A DNA stretch of 64,000 nt, taken from the NCBI RefSeq assembly GCF_001787335.1, contig NZ_CP014674.1, positions 1,444,501 to 1,508,500 of the forward strand. The letters run 5' to 3'. Made by a program: the position numbers and the translations under genes. Position 1 is the first letter of the stretch. Each line of letters begins with the position of its first letter. Below, one piece after another: positions 26,346 through 62,351 of the stretch. Under the pieces are notes generated by a model. It ran no database searches. It saw only the letters and a list, made by a program, of their open reading frames with translations, and was not told the DNA's origin. Source of the DNA: Kozakia baliensis. Its GTDB lineage: Bacteria; Pseudomonadota; Alphaproteobacteria; Acetobacterales; Acetobacteraceae.

Positions 26346-26713
26346 TCCGTCGTCTTTCCCTGATCGCCGTTTTGGCCTGTTCTACATTCACCATTGCGCA
26401 CGCACAGCGTCTCTCCTCCATGCAAGCGGGCCGTTTCGGGCAAATTTGCTCCCGTCCAGCAGGCAAGGCGGTTTGTGATGCTTATATCGCAGGTGTTGCG
26501 GATGCTGGCGCGCTCTCTCGCCTCAATTCGAAAGGAGAGGGTGATGCCGACGCCGTTGCCGGTTTCTGCATCCCTGACAGCGAGACGACGGACGCCATGC
26601 GTAATCATGTCGTCTCTTGGCTCCGTGCTCATAAGGACGTGCTGAACCAGCCGGTCGGCAAGTCCGTCTTTGCTGCATTGCACGATTCTTACGCCTGCGG
26701 GGGCGGCAAATAA
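26342..26713 (+). CDS. secreted Rap1a/Tai-like protein inside the pur cluster
   Basis: A 123-residue protein with a Sec signal peptide ([19 protein letters not shown], cut near residue 21) and four cysteines at 36, 45, 76 and 119, spaced as in the Rap1a/Tai domain ([18 protein letters not shown]). Characterised members bind and neutralise type VI amidase effectors in the periplasm, but many others sit far from any secretion gene and have no known role. It is coupled on both sides: a 4-base overlap with purS and a 1-base overlap (TAATG) with purQ. It therefore lies between two subunits of one cytosolic enzyme. The family assignment is by pattern and not certain. Confidence 0.7.
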
Positions 26714-27414
26714 TGAAAGCGGGCGTTGTCGTCTTCCCAGGGACGAATCGAGAGCGCGATATGGTGCAGGCGTTGCGCCTTGTCAGCGGCAAGGAGCCTG
26801 CGCTGCTTTGGCATCGCGATACTTCCCTGCCTTCGCTTGATCTGATCGTCCTGCCAGGTGGTTTTAGCTTCGGCGATTATCTGCGCTCCGGCGCAATGGG
26901 CGCACATTCTCCCATCATGCGCGAGATCAAGACGTTTGCCGAACGCGGGGGCCATGTGCTGGGCGTCTGCAATGGCTTTCAAATCCTGACGGAGGCGCAT
27001 CTGCTACCCGGTGCGCTTTTGCGTAATGCGGGAATGCGCTTTTTGGCGCAGGATGGCTTTCTGCGCGTGGAAAACAACGCCACCGCTTTTACGCGCGGCT
27101 GGAAAGAAGGCGCCGTCTTCCGCGCGCCTCTGGCCCATGGCGACGGCAATTACACCGCGGCGCCGGAAGAGCTTGATCGTCTGGAGGATGAAGGACGCGT
27201 GGCGTTCCGCTATGCCAGCGCGGCGGGGCAGGTCGATGCCAATAATCGCCTAAGCAACCCCAATGGCAGCCAACGCTCCATCGCCGGTGTGTTGAGCGCC
27301 AATAAGCGCGTTTGCGGCCTAATGCCCCACCCGGAAAACCTCGTTGATCCCGATCTGGGCGCGACCGATGGCGTGCCTCTATTCACCGGTCTGCTGGAGA
27401 GTTTGGTCGCATGA
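26713..27414 (+). CDS. purQ: phosphoribosylformylglycinamidine synthase subunit PurQ
   Basis: PurQ is the glutaminase subunit of FGAM synthase. The 233 residues are a class I amidotransferase: [16 protein letters not shown], nucleophile Cys86 in GVCNGFQIL, and the His-Glu pair in GLMPHPEN. It overlaps purL by 4 bases and the preceding Rap1a-like gene by 1 base, so expression of the three-subunit enzyme passes through that gene. Confidence 0.96.
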
Positions 27415-29609
27415 GCATGACCGTCGATGCCGCATTGGCGAAACGTTTCGGCCTGACCGCCGAAGAGTATGATAAAGTCCTGGCCATCATGGGCCGCACG
27501 CCGAGCCTGACGGAGCTTGGCATCTTTTCCGTGATGTGGTCGGAGCATTGCTCCTACAAATCCTCCCGCGTCCATCTCAAGACGCTGCCGACCAAAGCGC
27601 CATGGGTTATCCATGGCCCTGGCGAGAATGCGGGCGTGGTCGATATCGGGGACGGGCTGGCGGCCATCTTCAAGATGGAAAGCCACAATCACCCTTCCTT
27701 TATCGAACCGTATCAAGGCGCAGCCACCGGCGTCGGTGGCATCCTGCGTGATGTCTTCACCATGGGCGCGCGCCCCGTCGCCAATCTCAACGCGCTGCGC
27801 TTCGGCAATCCGAAGCTGCCGGTCACCCAGCGCGTCATTGATGGCGTCGTGCGCGGCATCGGCGGCTACGGTAACTGCGTCGGCGTGCCTACGGTCGGCG
27901 GAGAAGTGAATTTTCATTCGTCCTATGACGGCAATCCGCTCGTAAACGCCATGACGGTCGGCGTCGCGCGTCAGGATCGGATTTTCCTCTCCGCCGCGGC
28001 AGGCGTTGGCAATCCGGTCGTCTATGTCGGCTCCAAGACAGGACGCGACGGCATCCACGGCGCAACCATGTCCTCGGCGGAGTTTGACGAGCACGCTGCT
28101 TCCAAACGCCCAACGGTCCAGGTCGGCGATCCGTTTACGGAAAAGCTGCTGATCGAAGCTTGTCTGGAACTGATGGCGACGGATGCAATCGTTGCTATTC
28201 AGGATATGGGCGCGGCCGGTTTAACTTCCTCGGCCGTGGAAATGGCCGGGAAGGGCGGTGTTGGCATCGAACTCGACCTCGATCGGGTGCCGCAACGCGA
28301 AACCGGCATGACCGCCTATGAAATGATGTTGTCCGAAAGCCAGGAGCGCATGCTCATGGTGCTCAAGCCGGAACGCACGGAAGTCGCGCGCGCCATCTTC
28401 GAGAAATGGGAGTTGGATTTCGCCATCGTCGGCCATCTGACCGATACCGCGCGCATCACCATCAAGCATCAGGGCCAGACCGAAGCAGACATCCCGCTTG
28501 CCCCCCTGGCGGATGAAGCCCCGCTTTATCACCGCCCGATGACGCATGCGAAGCCGCCTGCGCGTCTTGGCCCCGTCGCCGATCCTGAAGGGATCGAGCA
28601 CGCGCTTCTGCATCTGCTGGCCAGCCCCGATCTCGCGTCGCGCGCTTGGATCTGGAACCAATACGATAGCGGCGTTGGCGGGCAAACGGCGCGTCGCCCC
28701 GGCACGGCAGACGCTGCTCTGGTGCGCGTCGAAGGCACCAAGCGCGGCTTGGCTGTCACGACGGATTGCACACCACGCTACTGCCAGGCCGATGCGCGCA
28801 TGGGCGGCGCTCAGGCTGTAGCGGAAGCATGGCGCAACATCACCGCAACAGGCGCCAAGCCTTTGGCAGTGACGGATAATCTGAATTTCGGCAATCCTGA
28901 GAAGCCGGAAATCATGGGGCAGTTCGCCGATGCGATCAAAGGCATGGGCGAAGCCTGCCGCGCATTGGATTTCCCCGTGGTAAGCGGCAACGTGTCGCTC
29001 TACAACCAGACCTCCCATCCAAACGGATTGAGTGTTTCCATTCTGCCGACGCCCGCCATTGGCGGTTTGGGCGTGATTGAAGACATTACCAAGGCTGTCG
29101 GTTACGGCATGCCGGATCAATCCGAACTCGTTCTTATCGGCGAGATTCGGGGTGAACTTGGCCAGTCGCTTTGGCTGCGTGAAATTTGCCATCGCGAAGA
29201 AGGTGCGCCACCGGTGGTGGATCTCGTGGCGGAACGCCGCAACGGCGATTTCGTGCGTGAGCATATCCAATCCGGCGCGATTACAGCCTGCCACGATATT
29301 GCCGATGGCGGGTTGCTGATTGCCGTAGCCGAAATGGTCATGGCGAGCGGCGTAGGCTGCGAACTTCTCGCGCCTAAACATGGCATCAGTCTGCACGCCT
29401 ATTATTTCGGCGAGGACCAAGCTTGCTATATCGCAGCGACGAATGATGCGGCGGCTCTTATCGAAGCCGCAGAGAAAGCCCATGTGCCAGCACGCCGCCT
29501 GGGCCGCACGGGAGGCGATCACCTCAAGCTGGCCGATGGCGTTTCGCTTTCCGCGCAACGTCTGCGGGACGTGAACGAGGCTTTCTTCCCTCAATTGATG
29601 GAACGTTAA
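27411..29609 (+). CDS. purL: phosphoribosylformylglycinamidine synthase subunit PurL
   Basis: PurL is the synthetase subunit that turns FGAR into FGAM with ATP. At 732 residues it is the small type that needs PurS and PurQ. Motifs include [52 protein letters not shown] and the second-half YNQTSHPNG. It ends 3 bases before bolA. Confidence 0.96.
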
Positions 29610-57976: not shown

Positions 57977-58561
57977 TCAGTATCCAATCGCGAACCAACT
58001 CACGGGAACGGTTTGATCGAAATTCACGACGTTGGACTGCCCGCCGGATAGCGTGTCGCCGATCAAATTGAAGGTGCCGGCCGCAAGCGTCGCCGTGGTA
58101 ATCGAAGGGTAATAGCCGTGCGCGCTACTTGCGGCACGGCCAGCATTGCCGATGGCCACCGCGCATGCATTGGGGAATGCAACCGGGAGAGAAACCGATG
58201 CGGTGGAAATCGTCGCCGACGCTACCGGTAGCGTTGCTTGGCCCCATTGCAGAATTAGCCCAAACGGCAGCTTCACCCATCCCGTCGCCCCCAAAGACCC
58301 GGCGAACGACGCGACCACGCCAGTTCCGATCAGACTTTTAATCGCGGCGAGGAGTTGATGAGGATTCGTCTTATCCAGCGTCCCGCCGGTTTCCTCGATA
58401 GGAGCGGCAATTTCCTCTTGAACGATGTTGAGCCAGTCGCCGCTTACAATCGTCGCCGCTTCTCCTGCAGCGGGGTTTCCCTCCGAGAAATAGCCTGGCG
58501 TTCCCGCAGCTGCCGGCGCCGGCATATTGGCGACGGCCGAGCTGTTATCGATACGAAACAT
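57977..58561 (-). CDS. phage tail fibre protein
   Basis: A 194-residue tail fibre of the short type. The N-terminus (PAPAAAGTPGYFSEGNPAAG, then ATIVSGDWLNIVQEEI) is the tail-attachment module common in Mu-like and lambdoid phages. The C-terminus (GWVKLPFGLILQWGQA ... VPVSWFAIGY) is the gp53-like receptor-binding fold. The collagen-like or beta-prism middle of longer fibres is missing, so the fibre is small. It lies just after the spike gene. Confidence 0.8.
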   Translation of the reverse strand: MFRIDNSSAVANMPAPAAAGTPGYFSEGNPAAGEAATIVSGDWLNIVQEEIAAPIEETGGTLDKTNPHQLLAAIKSLIGTGVVASFAGSLGATGWVKLPFGLILQWGQATLPVASATISTASVSLPVAFPNACAVAIGNAGRAASSAHGYYPSITTATLAAGTFNLIGDTLSGGQSNVVNFDQTVPVSWFAIGY

Positions 58562-58573
58562 CTTCTCTGTCCT

Positions 58574-60151
58574 TCAATTCGTCGCTTGCTTGCCACTGAG
58601 TTGGGATGCCCAGTAGGACGACCCGCCACTGGACGCGGCAGCACTGCAAAAAGCCGGTCCGCCTGTTCCGCTTCCCGCGCTTTCTCCGGGTTTCGTCATG
58701 TCGCTGAGATAGGCGCGCGCGCCGACCGCCGCGCTCGCCCCACAGGCGGGAACCGTCGCGAGGGTATAGGTCGGCGTGCTCGGGTTGGAGAGCGCAGGCG
58801 GCACGACATTGGGGCCGTAGCTTCCGCCGACATTGCCGAAGAGCTGACCGATGGAGAGCACTTTCGACCAAGCGAATTCGGCGTTGACGCCAAATTCGCC
58901 ATTGGCTGTGATCAAGGTCTGCGGCGCTACCGCCAAAATGGCCGATCCATCGGCGCTGCGGATGCCATCGCGCTTGGCCGCCGTCACATAAGGAGATGAC
59001 ACGACTAATTCGCAGCCGGGGAAAGACTTCACGTAGATATTGTCATACGTCTTCGCGGCGGTGACCGGCCCGGCGACTTCCACGATGCCGTAATTGGCCA
59101 AGCTACACTTGGCGTCGTTGATGTAATAATTCCATTGAATTGCCTGATCGGTCACCACATGTTTGCCGAGGAAAATTTCCTGGTTCTTCTGGGCAACGAG
59201 CGCATTGTCGTCGAGCACGTTGATGGCGTTGGTGGTGATCTCGGTATTGTCGGCATGGACATTGTCTATACCACCGGCAACGTGCATCCCCACGGCGCTT
59301 TCCGACAGCTTCCCATTATTGAGAAACACATCATATTGGTAAGGCGTGCCGATGCCGAGCGCGCTGATCACCAGCGCGTCGTTCTGCGCCTGGAAGTAAT
59401 ATCCATCGACCGAGACGAAATTCGGTTGGTCGATATAAAGACCGTTCCACAGTGTGTTTTGCGACGTATTCAAGTAGGTCGCCACCACGTCCTTGAGCCA
59501 TCCATAGCTCGTCTGGGAAATATGGATCGCAGCCCCGGCCGTCATCTTGGTCTGGCTCCAGACCGAGAACCCTTGCACGACCGGATTGTAACCGCCGGGA
59601 ACGTCGATCAGGTCGATATTCGTCTTTAGACCCGTATAGACGAACTGGGTCGCCTGAGAGCCGCCGCCAACAACTGAGGAAGAGTTCAAGTTAAAGGTCA
59701 GCGTGCCGCTGAACAGACAGGTGCCAGCAGGAAAGACGACGCGCTTGCGCTGAATGCGCGCGACGAAGATCGCATTGATCGCCGCCGTGTCGTCAGTCTG
59801 TCCGTCGCACTTTACGCCTTGGTCACGCACATTGATGTAATCGGCGAAGCGGTCGGAGAATAGGCGAGAGGTGGTGCCGCCATTTGCAAGGGCCAGTCCA
59901 GCGGAGAGGTCCGCCTCGGAAATCGATCCGCCGGTGATCGTCAGGTTCTGGGCTTTACCGCCGTTGACGTCGAGCTTGAGACCGAACCACGTATTCCATT
60001 GCAATGCACCGACGATATCGGCCACTTTTCCGGTTTCGGCATACGACCTCCAGTTGGGATTGCTTTGAGCGCAGGCGCTTCCCATAGCATTAGAGACGGC
60101 AAGCGCGGCCCCCATCGACAGTAGCTGGCGCAAAGAACGGTGTTTTTTCAT
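58574..60151 (-). CDS. beta-helix tail spike with apparent signal peptide
   Basis: A 525-residue protein with a pectate-lyase-like (right-handed beta-helix) body. It carries the family's opening motif FADYINVRDQGVKCDGQTDDTAAINAIF followed by VVFPAGTCLFSG, as in tail spikes that bind or cut surface polysaccharide. Unusually, it starts with what looks like a Sec signal (KKHRSLRQLLSMGAALAVS...ACAQS), and NPNWRSYAETG follows. The start lies 1 base after the gp48 stop. Either the signal is real and the protein is exported, or it marks capture of a host exopolysaccharide enzyme by the phage. Confidence 0.8.
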   Translation of the reverse strand: MKKHRSLRQLLSMGAALAVSNAMGSACAQSNPNWRSYAETGKVADIVGALQWNTWFGLKLDVNGGKAQNLTITGGSISEADLSAGLALANGGTTSRLFSDRFADYINVRDQGVKCDGQTDDTAAINAIFVARIQRKRVVFPAGTCLFSGTLTFNLNSSSVVGGGSQATQFVYTGLKTNIDLIDVPGGYNPVVQGFSVWSQTKMTAGAAIHISQTSYGWLKDVVATYLNTSQNTLWNGLYIDQPNFVSVDGYYFQAQNDALVISALGIGTPYQYDVFLNNGKLSESAVGMHVAGGIDNVHADNTEITTNAINVLDDNALVAQKNQEIFLGKHVVTDQAIQWNYYINDAKCSLANYGIVEVAGPVTAAKTYDNIYVKSFPGCELVVSSPYVTAAKRDGIRSADGSAILAVAPQTLITANGEFGVNAEFAWSKVLSIGQLFGNVGGSYGPNVVPPALSNPSTPTYTLATVPACGASAAVGARAYLSDMTKPGESAGSGTGGPAFCSAAASSGGSSYWASQLSGKQATN

Positions 60152-60152
60152 C

Positions 60153-60797
60153 TCAGTAGACCATCAATTCTGAGTCGCCACCGGAATCGTTTAAGAAAGG
60201 TGCGACATAGCCAAACCGAACGACCGTGTGCGCCGGAGCGCGTGCGGTGATCTCGCATTTCAACACGTCGTTTCCCCACGTCTGAAGCGGCTCCCCGGCG
60301 CATGACTGGCCGGCGCGAAACGCAACCGGCGTGTAACCCGGCGCGGAGACCGTCCAAGCGTAAACCCAGGCTTCGCCGCGCACCGGCTCACCGGCACGCA
60401 TCAATCCAGCGCGAGCGGGAGCATATTCCGTTATTGCGATCGGATATCCGAGCGACAGCGCGAACCCGCTGTAGTATGCGATCGACGAGCCACCGCTATC
60501 GGTTAGACGCGCCACCACTTGGCTGCGCCTTTGCTCCAGGGTTGGGCTCCGACCAGCGCACGGATCCGGTAGGCCAAGCGTGCTTTCCCATTCGGAGAGC
60601 ATGGACACCGTAGAGGCGGGGAAAACGTCGCCGATAAATATCTTCCCCGTCGATATTACCTTGACGGAAGCAGGCGTGAAAATCGCTATGATTTTCGAGA
60701 TTGCCGTATCCAAACCACGTGGCCACGCCCTGCCAGTGGGCATTGTTCGCTTGATGCCAGCCGAGAATTGCTCAGTCGAATAGGTTGGAACTGGCAT
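60153..60797 (-). CDS. phage baseplate protein, gp48/YmfQ (DUF2313) family
   Basis: A 214-residue protein like Mu gp48, found at the baseplate centre next to gp47. Markers are LLPRGRAWPR-type KRTMPTGRAWPRGLD near the start, STVSMLSEWESTLGLPDPCA, and TLEQRRSQVVARLTDSGG. It overlaps gp47's stop by one base. Confidence 0.88.
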   Translation of the reverse strand: MPVPTYSTEQFSAGIKRTMPTGRAWPRGLDTAISKIIAIFTPASVKVISTGKIFIGDVFPASTVSMLSEWESTLGLPDPCAGRSPTLEQRRSQVVARLTDSGGSSIAYYSGFALSLGYPIAITEYAPARAGLMRAGEPVRGEAWVYAWTVSAPGYTPVAFRAGQSCAGEPLQTWGNDVLKCEITARAPAHTVVRFGYVAPFLNDSGGDSELMVY

Positions 60798-61906
60798 TAT
60801 TGAATGTCCAGTTTACCAACGGTAGGCAAGCTACCAACGGGAACAACGACAGGGGAAATCGGATTTTTGAGTGTGAAGGTAGACGCACCAGTTGAAAGGA
60901 TTGCCGCCTCGATCGCGGCTGGCGACAGCGTCATTCCAAGCGGCGTGCCTTTCCGCAGAAAGAGATCGGCGAGTGCAGCAGTGATTGCAGCGGCCGTTAC
61001 ACCGGTCGACAAATCGGAAAGAGCCACGTCGATCGGGTATGCGGCCGGCGAACAAACGATCACTAGAGCAGTAACAGGCTGTTCTGGACGAACCGTATCA
61101 GCGACAAAAAGCTGATCGCCAATTGCTACGGGGTATCGGGTTTCATCCGATGCGCTTCCATCCGTTCCTTGTGGGAAACCATTTTCTGCGGCACGCACAT
61201 CATCGAGCATCGGATAGACAACAACGGTGCCAGCACCGAAGCCGTTCGGATTACACCAAGCGCGCGTTACTCCCGTTGCGCTAAGCGCCCACTCCACATA
61301 ATCGACCGCTCTCCCGCCGCCGTCACGGCTGGCGTACGCCTCCATGATGCGAGTTCGGAGTTCGTCATCGCTTTCCTGATCGGCACCCAAGGCGACCGTG
61401 CCAGTGGAGGTGAAGCTTGCGTTGATGCCTGCGATCGCAGTTGCAAGGGTAAAGCCCGTGCCAGGATCGCAATTTCCATCGGCTCCTGCATCGGAGCATT
61501 GCACTTGACAAACGACGCTGCCGGTCGCGTCGGTCTCAACGCCGGATACCACCGTGTAACCCAACCCGTCGGCTCGATTTATAGCCGTTCCAGCCGGTAG
61601 GGGGATAAGTGGTGATCCCCCAGACGAAACCAGTGTCAGCGTTGCGGTCTCCGCATCCTTTCGAACAACTTTGCGCATCGCGCCCCAGGCATCGAGCGCC
61701 TCGTCTTCCGCCGTCCAGGGCACCGCCTGTCGATAACAATAGGAAAGATAATCGTAATTGCCCCAAACCAGATTGGCGAACATCCATGTCAGAACGCGCA
61801 GGATCGAACGTGGCAGCAGCGATCGACCGGCTGTGACGTTGCTGGCGACAACATCATTCAGCCCCTGATTGAACAGATCAGAAAGGGTCGGCTGTTGATA
61901 GGGCAT
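60797..61906 (-). CDS. phage baseplate protein J / gp47 family
   Basis: A 369-residue baseplate wedge protein of the Mu gp47 (P2 gpJ-like) family. It opens QQPTLSDLFNQGLNDV, has VVRKDAETATLTLVSSGGS...LPAGTAINRADG early and RTRIMEAYASRDGGGRAVDYVEWAL centrally, the latter being the family's most conserved block. AGGA precedes the ATG at 61906. The frame open to 61954 overlaps gp46 further and is not preferred; even so there is a 29-base overlap with gp46. Confidence 0.9.
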   Translation of the reverse strand: MPYQQPTLSDLFNQGLNDVVASNVTAGRSLLPRSILRVLTWMFANLVWGNYDYLSYCYRQAVPWTAEDEALDAWGAMRKVVRKDAETATLTLVSSGGSPLIPLPAGTAINRADGLGYTVVSGVETDATGSVVCQVQCSDAGADGNCDPGTGFTLATAIAGINASFTSTGTVALGADQESDDELRTRIMEAYASRDGGGRAVDYVEWALSATGVTRAWCNPNGFGAGTVVVYPMLDDVRAAENGFPQGTDGSASDETRYPVAIGDQLFVADTVRPEQPVTALVIVCSPAAYPIDVALSDLSTGVTAAAITAALADLFLRKGTPLGMTLSPAAIEAAILSTGASTFTLKNPISPVVVPVGSLPTVGKLDIQ

Positions 61907-62351
61907 TTTGGTCCTTCCATGCCCACGCATACTGGAAGGACGTATCGGTCCCATCGGGCGCAGTCAGAACAATGCCAATATTTAAGGTTGAACCGTTCAG
62001 CCACGATGTCGTGACGGAAACCTTACCAACAATTCCGTCATCGATCATCCATTGCAGCGCATTTTCGCAAATGGTGCGCGCGTGGGTGAGAAGACTGTTG
62101 CCAATTTTCTTGCTGCCCTCGATCGTCCACAGAAGGGAGCCCATCGAATAACCTTCGTAAAAATCGATCCAGCACCCGCGCAGATCCGTCGATCCGTTCG
62201 GCGGCACCGTCCCATCAGGTGCACGGGCATCGGTAAACAGACTCAGCAGCACCGCCGTTTCGAGATCTCCCGTTGTGTCGAGATCTCCGTCTGTGATGAC
62301 CCAATCGCAGTGGCCTTTGGTATTGTCATAGACGAGACGAATATCAGTCAT
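61878..62351 (-). CDS. phage baseplate protein, gp46 family
   Basis: A 157-residue protein of the Mu gp46 family, a small baseplate component. It starts TDIRLVYDNTKGHCDWVITDGDL and has DLETAVLLSLFTDARA and RGCWIDFYEGYSMGSLLWTI, as in other family members. It overlaps gp45 upstream by 4 bases (ATGA). Confidence 0.9.
   Translation of the reverse strand: MTDIRLVYDNTKGHCDWVITDGDLDTTGDLETAVLLSLFTDARAPDGTVPPNGSTDLRGCWIDFYEGYSMGSLLWTIEGSKKIGNSLLTHARTICENALQWMIDDGIVGKVSVTTSWLNGSTLNIGIVLTAPDGTDTSFQYAWAWKDQNALSTADPF

Follow-up and report, generated by a model that had tools for sequence, protein, structure and literature searches.

Virion tail spikes such as CBA120 TSP3, HK620 and Depo32 are synthesized and assembled in the cytoplasm and carry no signal peptides. 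An exported tailspike-like beta-helix is known from Pantoea stewartii, where WceF acts on the exopolysaccharide and its mutation leads to longer stewartan chains (PMC7949094). Late phage proteins can be exported by the Sec pathway before lysis, as described for exported endolysins (Lys44 of fOg44) and for SAR endolysins (PMC6116005). Phage-fibre-like proteins with signal peptides have been reported as the MAT fibres of Bdellovibrio (PMC10769870), and the polysaccharide lyase RbmB of Vibrio cholerae is a matrix-degrading beta-helix enzyme encoded by a host biofilm-dispersal gene (PMC11637428). No description of signal-bearing tail spikes as a class was found in the open-access literature searched.

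The window, i.e. the whole stretch of 64,000 nucleotides that was analysed, ends with the tail module of a Mu-like prophage, encoded on the minus strand (Acetobacteraceae; relatives in the same family include Gluconacetobacter and Asaia). One gene of this module encodes a spike-like protein that resembles virion tail spikes and depolymerases in its beta-helix, in PHROG tail-spike similarity at residues 95-180 and in its tail-module location, with gp48 and a gp53-like fibre on either side. Unlike virion spikes, which are made without an export signal, it has a Sec-type N-terminus and a cysteine pair that is missing from its cytoplasmic homologue L148. WceF is encoded in a host exopolysaccharide cluster and carries a Tat signal, whereas the present gene belongs to the tail operon of a prophage and specifies a Sec-type signal; the products of its homologues L033 and L051, signal-bearing and encoded in host polysaccharide clusters, are comparable to WceF. 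Lys44 and the SAR endolysins target peptidoglycan, unlike the spike-type glycan-binding or glycan-cutting fold encoded in this tail operon, and the MAT fibres belong to a cellular predator, whereas the spike-like protein is phage-encoded. RbmB is among its structural matches; sequence similarity between the two is not established.

The spike gene and its predicted product

The module runs in the order gp44-like hub, gp45, gp46, Baseplate J, gp48, spike gene, gp53-like fibre and probable lysis genes (Table 1), and the same prophage is also present in IMG/VR as a 37.4-kb contig. The ATG of the spike gene lies 1 bp past the TGA of gp48, an arrangement as in translational coupling, and 12 bp separate the end of the gene from the ATG of the fibre. 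Moron or lysogenic-conversion genes have their own promoter and terminator; a scan found no promoter-like site upstream of the spike gene, and the counts of such sites did not rise above chance level.

Table 1. Features of the spike gene and its neighbours (positions in the window)
Feature	Position	Strand	Basis or remark
Spike-like protein of 525 aa (Sec signal peptide, beta-helix)	58574..60151	-	ORF, Pfam, PHROG, AF2
Signal peptide, residues 1-28, predicted cut between SACA and QS	60068..60151	-	Sequence; rule score 4.89
N-terminal module, residues 31-75 (NPNWRSYAETGKVADIV...KLDVNGGKAQNL)	59927..60061	-	Recurs in further prophage spike genes, whether or not these encode a signal peptide
Right-handed beta-helix, residues 100-430	58862..59854	-	Pfam, AF2, Foldseek
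Segment from Cys115 (KCDG) to Cys145 (GTC)	59717..59809	-	Pair accompanying signal peptides
C-terminal part, residues 447-506	58634..58813	-	Resembles parts of other large family ORFs (matches spanning only 445-523)
gp48 (baseplate wedge)	60153..60797	-	Stop 1 bp ahead of spike ATG
Baseplate J (gp47)	60797..61954	-	
gp53-like tail fibre	57977..58561	-	Conventional cytoplasmic N-terminus

The N-terminus of the protein reads MKKHRSLRQLLSMGAALAVSNAMGSACAQS followed by NPNW. It contains the elements of a Sec/SPI signal, namely a basic n-region (KKHRSLR, with K2, K3, R5 and R8), an Ala-rich core without charge (LLSMGAALAVSNAMG) and the SACA site, in which A26 and A28 form the A-x-A motif. Signals were called with a simple home-made Sec rule. 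When residues 2-35 of the protein were shuffled 5000 times, 10 of the shuffled versions reached its score of 4.89. Core genes of Mu-like tails served as a control and gave a call in 1 of 165 cases; among beta-helix spikes of cytoplasmic type the rule called 7 of 105. Inspection of residues 1-28 revealed no RR and hence no Tat twin-arginine motif, and a lipobox is absent from the protein (GSAC, without L, V or I at -3). Within the family, the signal ranks with the weaker ones, its Ala/Gly-rich core having a mean Kyte-Doolittle value of 1.99; no clear Shine-Dalgarno sequence precedes the ATG, and a codon-based start caller favoured the internal M13. Because of this weak signal, the lack of an evident ribosome-binding site and the M13 call, the case was not built on the window sequence alone.

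The body of the protein matches Pfam PF12708 (Pect-lyase_RHGA_epim) at residues 105-315 with 39.3 bits against a cut-off of 27. An AlphaFold2 monomer model, computed from a 26-sequence alignment, is highly confident for most of residues ~100-420, whereas confidence is low towards either terminus. Its Foldseek matches, with modest TM-scores of 0.2-0.45, comprise alginate C5-epimerases, polygalacturonases, the lyase RbmB, GH87, depolymerase tailspikes and PfbA, and further matches are phage 'pectate lyase superfamily' proteins. The model supports a glycan-active or glycan-binding beta-helix, whose substrate is not fixed by the structure matches, and no catalytic residues were identified in the protein. 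The first-pass annotation, which had described a Sec-type N-terminus and a beta-helix body on an ORF between gp48 and the tail fibre, is thereby borne out.

Signal-bearing relatives and the cysteine pair

A family-wide search found matches to the protein in 92 of 397 genomes, many of them with signal peptides at their N-termini. The nearest N-terminal relatives, L034 and L035 of Asaia bogorensis and L040, have the module 'TPxWKSYxxTGNPADIV...' directly after the cut site. Their mature N-terminus is conserved, and their signals have diverged in length and sequence while keeping the KR-hydrophobic-AxA properties. The N-terminal module also occurs without a signal (L037, L049, L056-L059), which makes the signal an optional part of a shared spike design. 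An internal start conserved among relatives was looked for and did not emerge: relatives own full signal peptides, though some homologues of the N-terminal module have none.

Related prophages had been singled out for comparison, and signal-bearing spike genes do recur in several unrelated prophage types. Of the 51 gp48 modules of the family that are followed by sufficient DNA, 11 encode a signal-bearing product of 300 aa or longer; ten of these signals are credible and one is a membrane segment. Among core tail genes the figure is 1 of 165. Such genes are found in Mu-like tail modules (L038, L055, L062, L095, L102, L108), in other myovirus modules (L040, L048) and in P22-like prophages (L045, phiAX1), where they lie between the adaptor Ad3 and the head closure Hc3 and no additional spike was seen in the stretch read. 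The stretches read of phiAP1, phiKM1, phiKX1 and phiKX2 contain no signal-bearing spike of at least 300 aa. Scans of genome and viral contigs with the single window protein matched only its own prophage. In phage records, the matches obtained by tblastn were short, came from Vibrio phages only and were limited to the N-cap. Plasmids gave no match to the protein, and the N-terminal module was not found in phage records. A paralogue in the host genome was not found either, the family search giving one match in G000.

Among these phages, phiAX1 (L142, LC644973.1) is inducible by mitomycin (PMC8566455). Two adjacent signal-bearing genes occupy its Ad3-Hc3 slot, the second being a GH66 protein of the dextranase/CITase type (E 2.9e-84). 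The deposited start of this tail-module gene (27387-29312) is 27492 and removes the Sec signal peptide; the upstream in-frame ATG at 27387 adds MKKIIILALLLLAPCVHA. The gene beside it in phiAX1, at 26418-27383, encodes a signal-bearing protein of 321 aa that belongs to no known family and whose N-terminus resembles that of the Asaia prunellae spike L045.

The signal is accompanied by a cysteine pair. The mature window protein has exactly six cysteines (115/145, 349/380 and 470/502), and signal-bearing beta-helices mostly read GxKCDGxxDD with a second cysteine about 30 residues further on; cytoplasmic ones mostly read GAKGDG. Counted as signal and pair, signal only, pair only and neither, the family set gives 12/5/0/11 (Fisher p 3e-4) and relatives from IMG/VR and GTDB give 10/2/1/47 (p 9e-9). 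As the searches for relatives began from cysteine-bearing seeds, two sets were drawn from IMG/VR by DNA pattern alone. Here, a signal was called in 42 of 72 KCDG spikes versus 7 of 105 KGDG spikes (p 4e-14); the sequences are related, and this kinship is partly corrected through clustering, which leaves p 4e-11 when each 60%-identity cluster is counted once, p 0.008 at 50% (19 of 26 versus 1 of 7) and p 0.06 at 45%, where few clusters remain. About one third of the cysteine-pair spikes (22 of 62) have no called signal. Head closure, adaptor, baseplate and tail-fibre families are among the neighbours of the signal-bearing KCDG set, which indicates that it consists at least partly of phage contigs, although IMG/VR contigs may contain host DNA.

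The most telling comparison for the link between signal and cysteines is L146/L148, which share the window body at 31% identity over residues 88-335 (E 1e-29) and have a conventional cytoplasmic phage N-terminus; neither cysteine of the 115/145 pair is present in them. The association with the cysteine pair supports use of the signal independently of the signal sequence itself, and the Sec signal of the window protein is very probably in actual use. In the products of two Sphingomonas beta-helix genes (L233, L234), the N-terminus is Tat-like (SRRDALM) and the cysteine pair is missing, a combination that would fit export as a folded protein.

Relatives also reside in host loci. The signal-bearing L033 of Gluconacetobacter dulcium lies amid glycosyltransferases and an ABC transporter. 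Around L051, which is signal-bearing too, there are genes for a nucleotidyl transferase, for a protein of the GDP-mannose dehydratase type and for an ABC transporter. Such proteins thus have two settings, the capsule-export loci of hosts and the tail modules of phages. Of the earlier proposal that the gene was captured from a host exopolysaccharide gene, the existence of host-cluster homologues stands; only L033 and L051 have that location, the window gene being part of a prophage tail operon, and since an equally close body is found in the cytoplasmic phage spike L146/L148, transfer may have gone in either direction. Within its host polysaccharide cluster, L051 (9653-10942) encodes a signal-bearing protein that has the prophage N-terminal module.

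Possible roles of the probably exported spike

Phages with these genes probably export a spike-like enzyme, either in place of its use on the virion or ahead of it. The favoured explanation, to which we assign a rough probability of 0.5, is that of a Sec-exported glycan depolymerase, expressed with the late genes, that would act on host surface polysaccharide before and at lysis. A beta-helix depolymerase of tail-spike type would leave via Sec to the periplasm, where the signal would be cut at A28 and disulfides would form. Produced together with the late tail genes, it could build up in the envelope shortly before lysis and be released alongside the virions, whose own fibre would be the conventional gp53-like one. 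The exported enzyme would most likely trim host surface polysaccharide or exopolysaccharide, so that progeny are not trapped on receptor-bearing debris and matrix. The sequences themselves show the architecture of the signal peptide, the place in the operon, the recurrence in further prophages, the link with the cysteine pair and the predicted fold. From these we infer that the protein is exported, forms disulfides and cuts a glycan, and likewise its substrate, its timing and the benefit to the phage; the enzymatic part draws on the signal-bearing GH66 in the phiAX1 slot and on the enzymes among the Foldseek matches. Since lysis alone frees a cytoplasmic enzyme, the gain from export must be sought in action before lysis or in disulfide-dependent folding, and with modest confidence we place it in pre-lysis action on periplasmic polysaccharide or on the cell's own surface.

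Points against depolymerase export are the weakness of the window signal relative to the family, the third of cysteine-pair spikes that have no called signal, the failure to identify catalytic residues and the modest TM-scores. The N-terminal module, common to cytoplasmic spikes, also speaks against it because it fits attachment to a virion as well. This module feeds the main rival, in which a genuine virion spike would leave through Sec, acquire its fold and its disulfides in the periplasm and, once the cell has lysed, dock by means of the module. P22 spikes can attach in vitro to spikeless particles. The mature protein retains the module seen at the start of cytoplasmic spike-like tail-module genes (L037, L056-L059), and in the P22-like Ad3-Hc3 slot the signal-bearing genes have no other spike beside them. 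However, the window prophage has a conventional fibre gene and no precedent was found, which makes post-lysis docking unlikely on balance. Its broader form, a widespread class of tailed phages whose Sec-exported spikes fold with disulfides in the periplasm and join virions at lysis outside the cytoplasm, is more doubtful still.

A small chance is left for the view, raised as a 'relic' in the first-pass annotation, that the segment is a remnant of capture or an unused signal, with translation starting at M13 or the segment serving as a signal-anchor-release or virion peptide. The ATG without Shine-Dalgarno sequence, the caller's choice of M13, the weakly hydrophobic core and the absence of the signal from some relatives all agree with it. 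The recurrence of signals that keep their properties despite sequence divergence, their clear AxA sites and their association with the cysteine pair nevertheless argue against it. Production by lysogens, also proposed earlier, would make the protein a secreted enzyme or surface protein for lysogenic conversion or superinfection exclusion. An export signal would suit this role, and the capsule-cluster homologues L033 and L051 presumably serve the cell; placement in a late tail operon with 1-bp and 12-bp spacing and no promoter above chance reduces it to a slim prospect. Slimmer yet is the case for an exported, non-enzymatic adhesin or decoy for host glycan: pure-adhesin beta-helices exist, PfbA is among the Foldseek matches, and further signal-bearing products of these modules are rich in Gly or lack a known domain, but the same slot of phiAX1 holds a clear glycosidase.

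Implications and further signal-bearing genes

If the favoured explanation of an exported depolymerase is correct, many temperate phages have exported versions of spikes that can be recognized by a signal peptide together with a KCDG...C pair. Annotation would change, as such genes are now called virion spikes or lose the signal through a late start, as in phiAX1. They would also represent a source of already secreted depolymerases and hint at how phages exit cells wrapped in exopolysaccharide, and an exchange of beta-helix enzymes between the capsule loci of hosts and the tails of phages becomes testable.

Other genes with signals or shared N-termini were encountered in these stretches. In acetic acid bacteria, prophage tail modules encode long signal-bearing proteins (545-760 aa) in which the signal core SAAFFV recurs (L048 5907-7544, L136 3735-6017, L081 5371-7359), and a Pfam scan of L048 and L136 gave no match. 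Tandem signal-bearing proteins, Gly-rich or uncharacterised, lie downstream of tail fibres in L110 (1111-2381) and L129 (1-3448). On the viral contig L146 (5514-11020), three neighbouring fibre genes have a common N-terminus (MSGDELLLP) and differ in their bodies.
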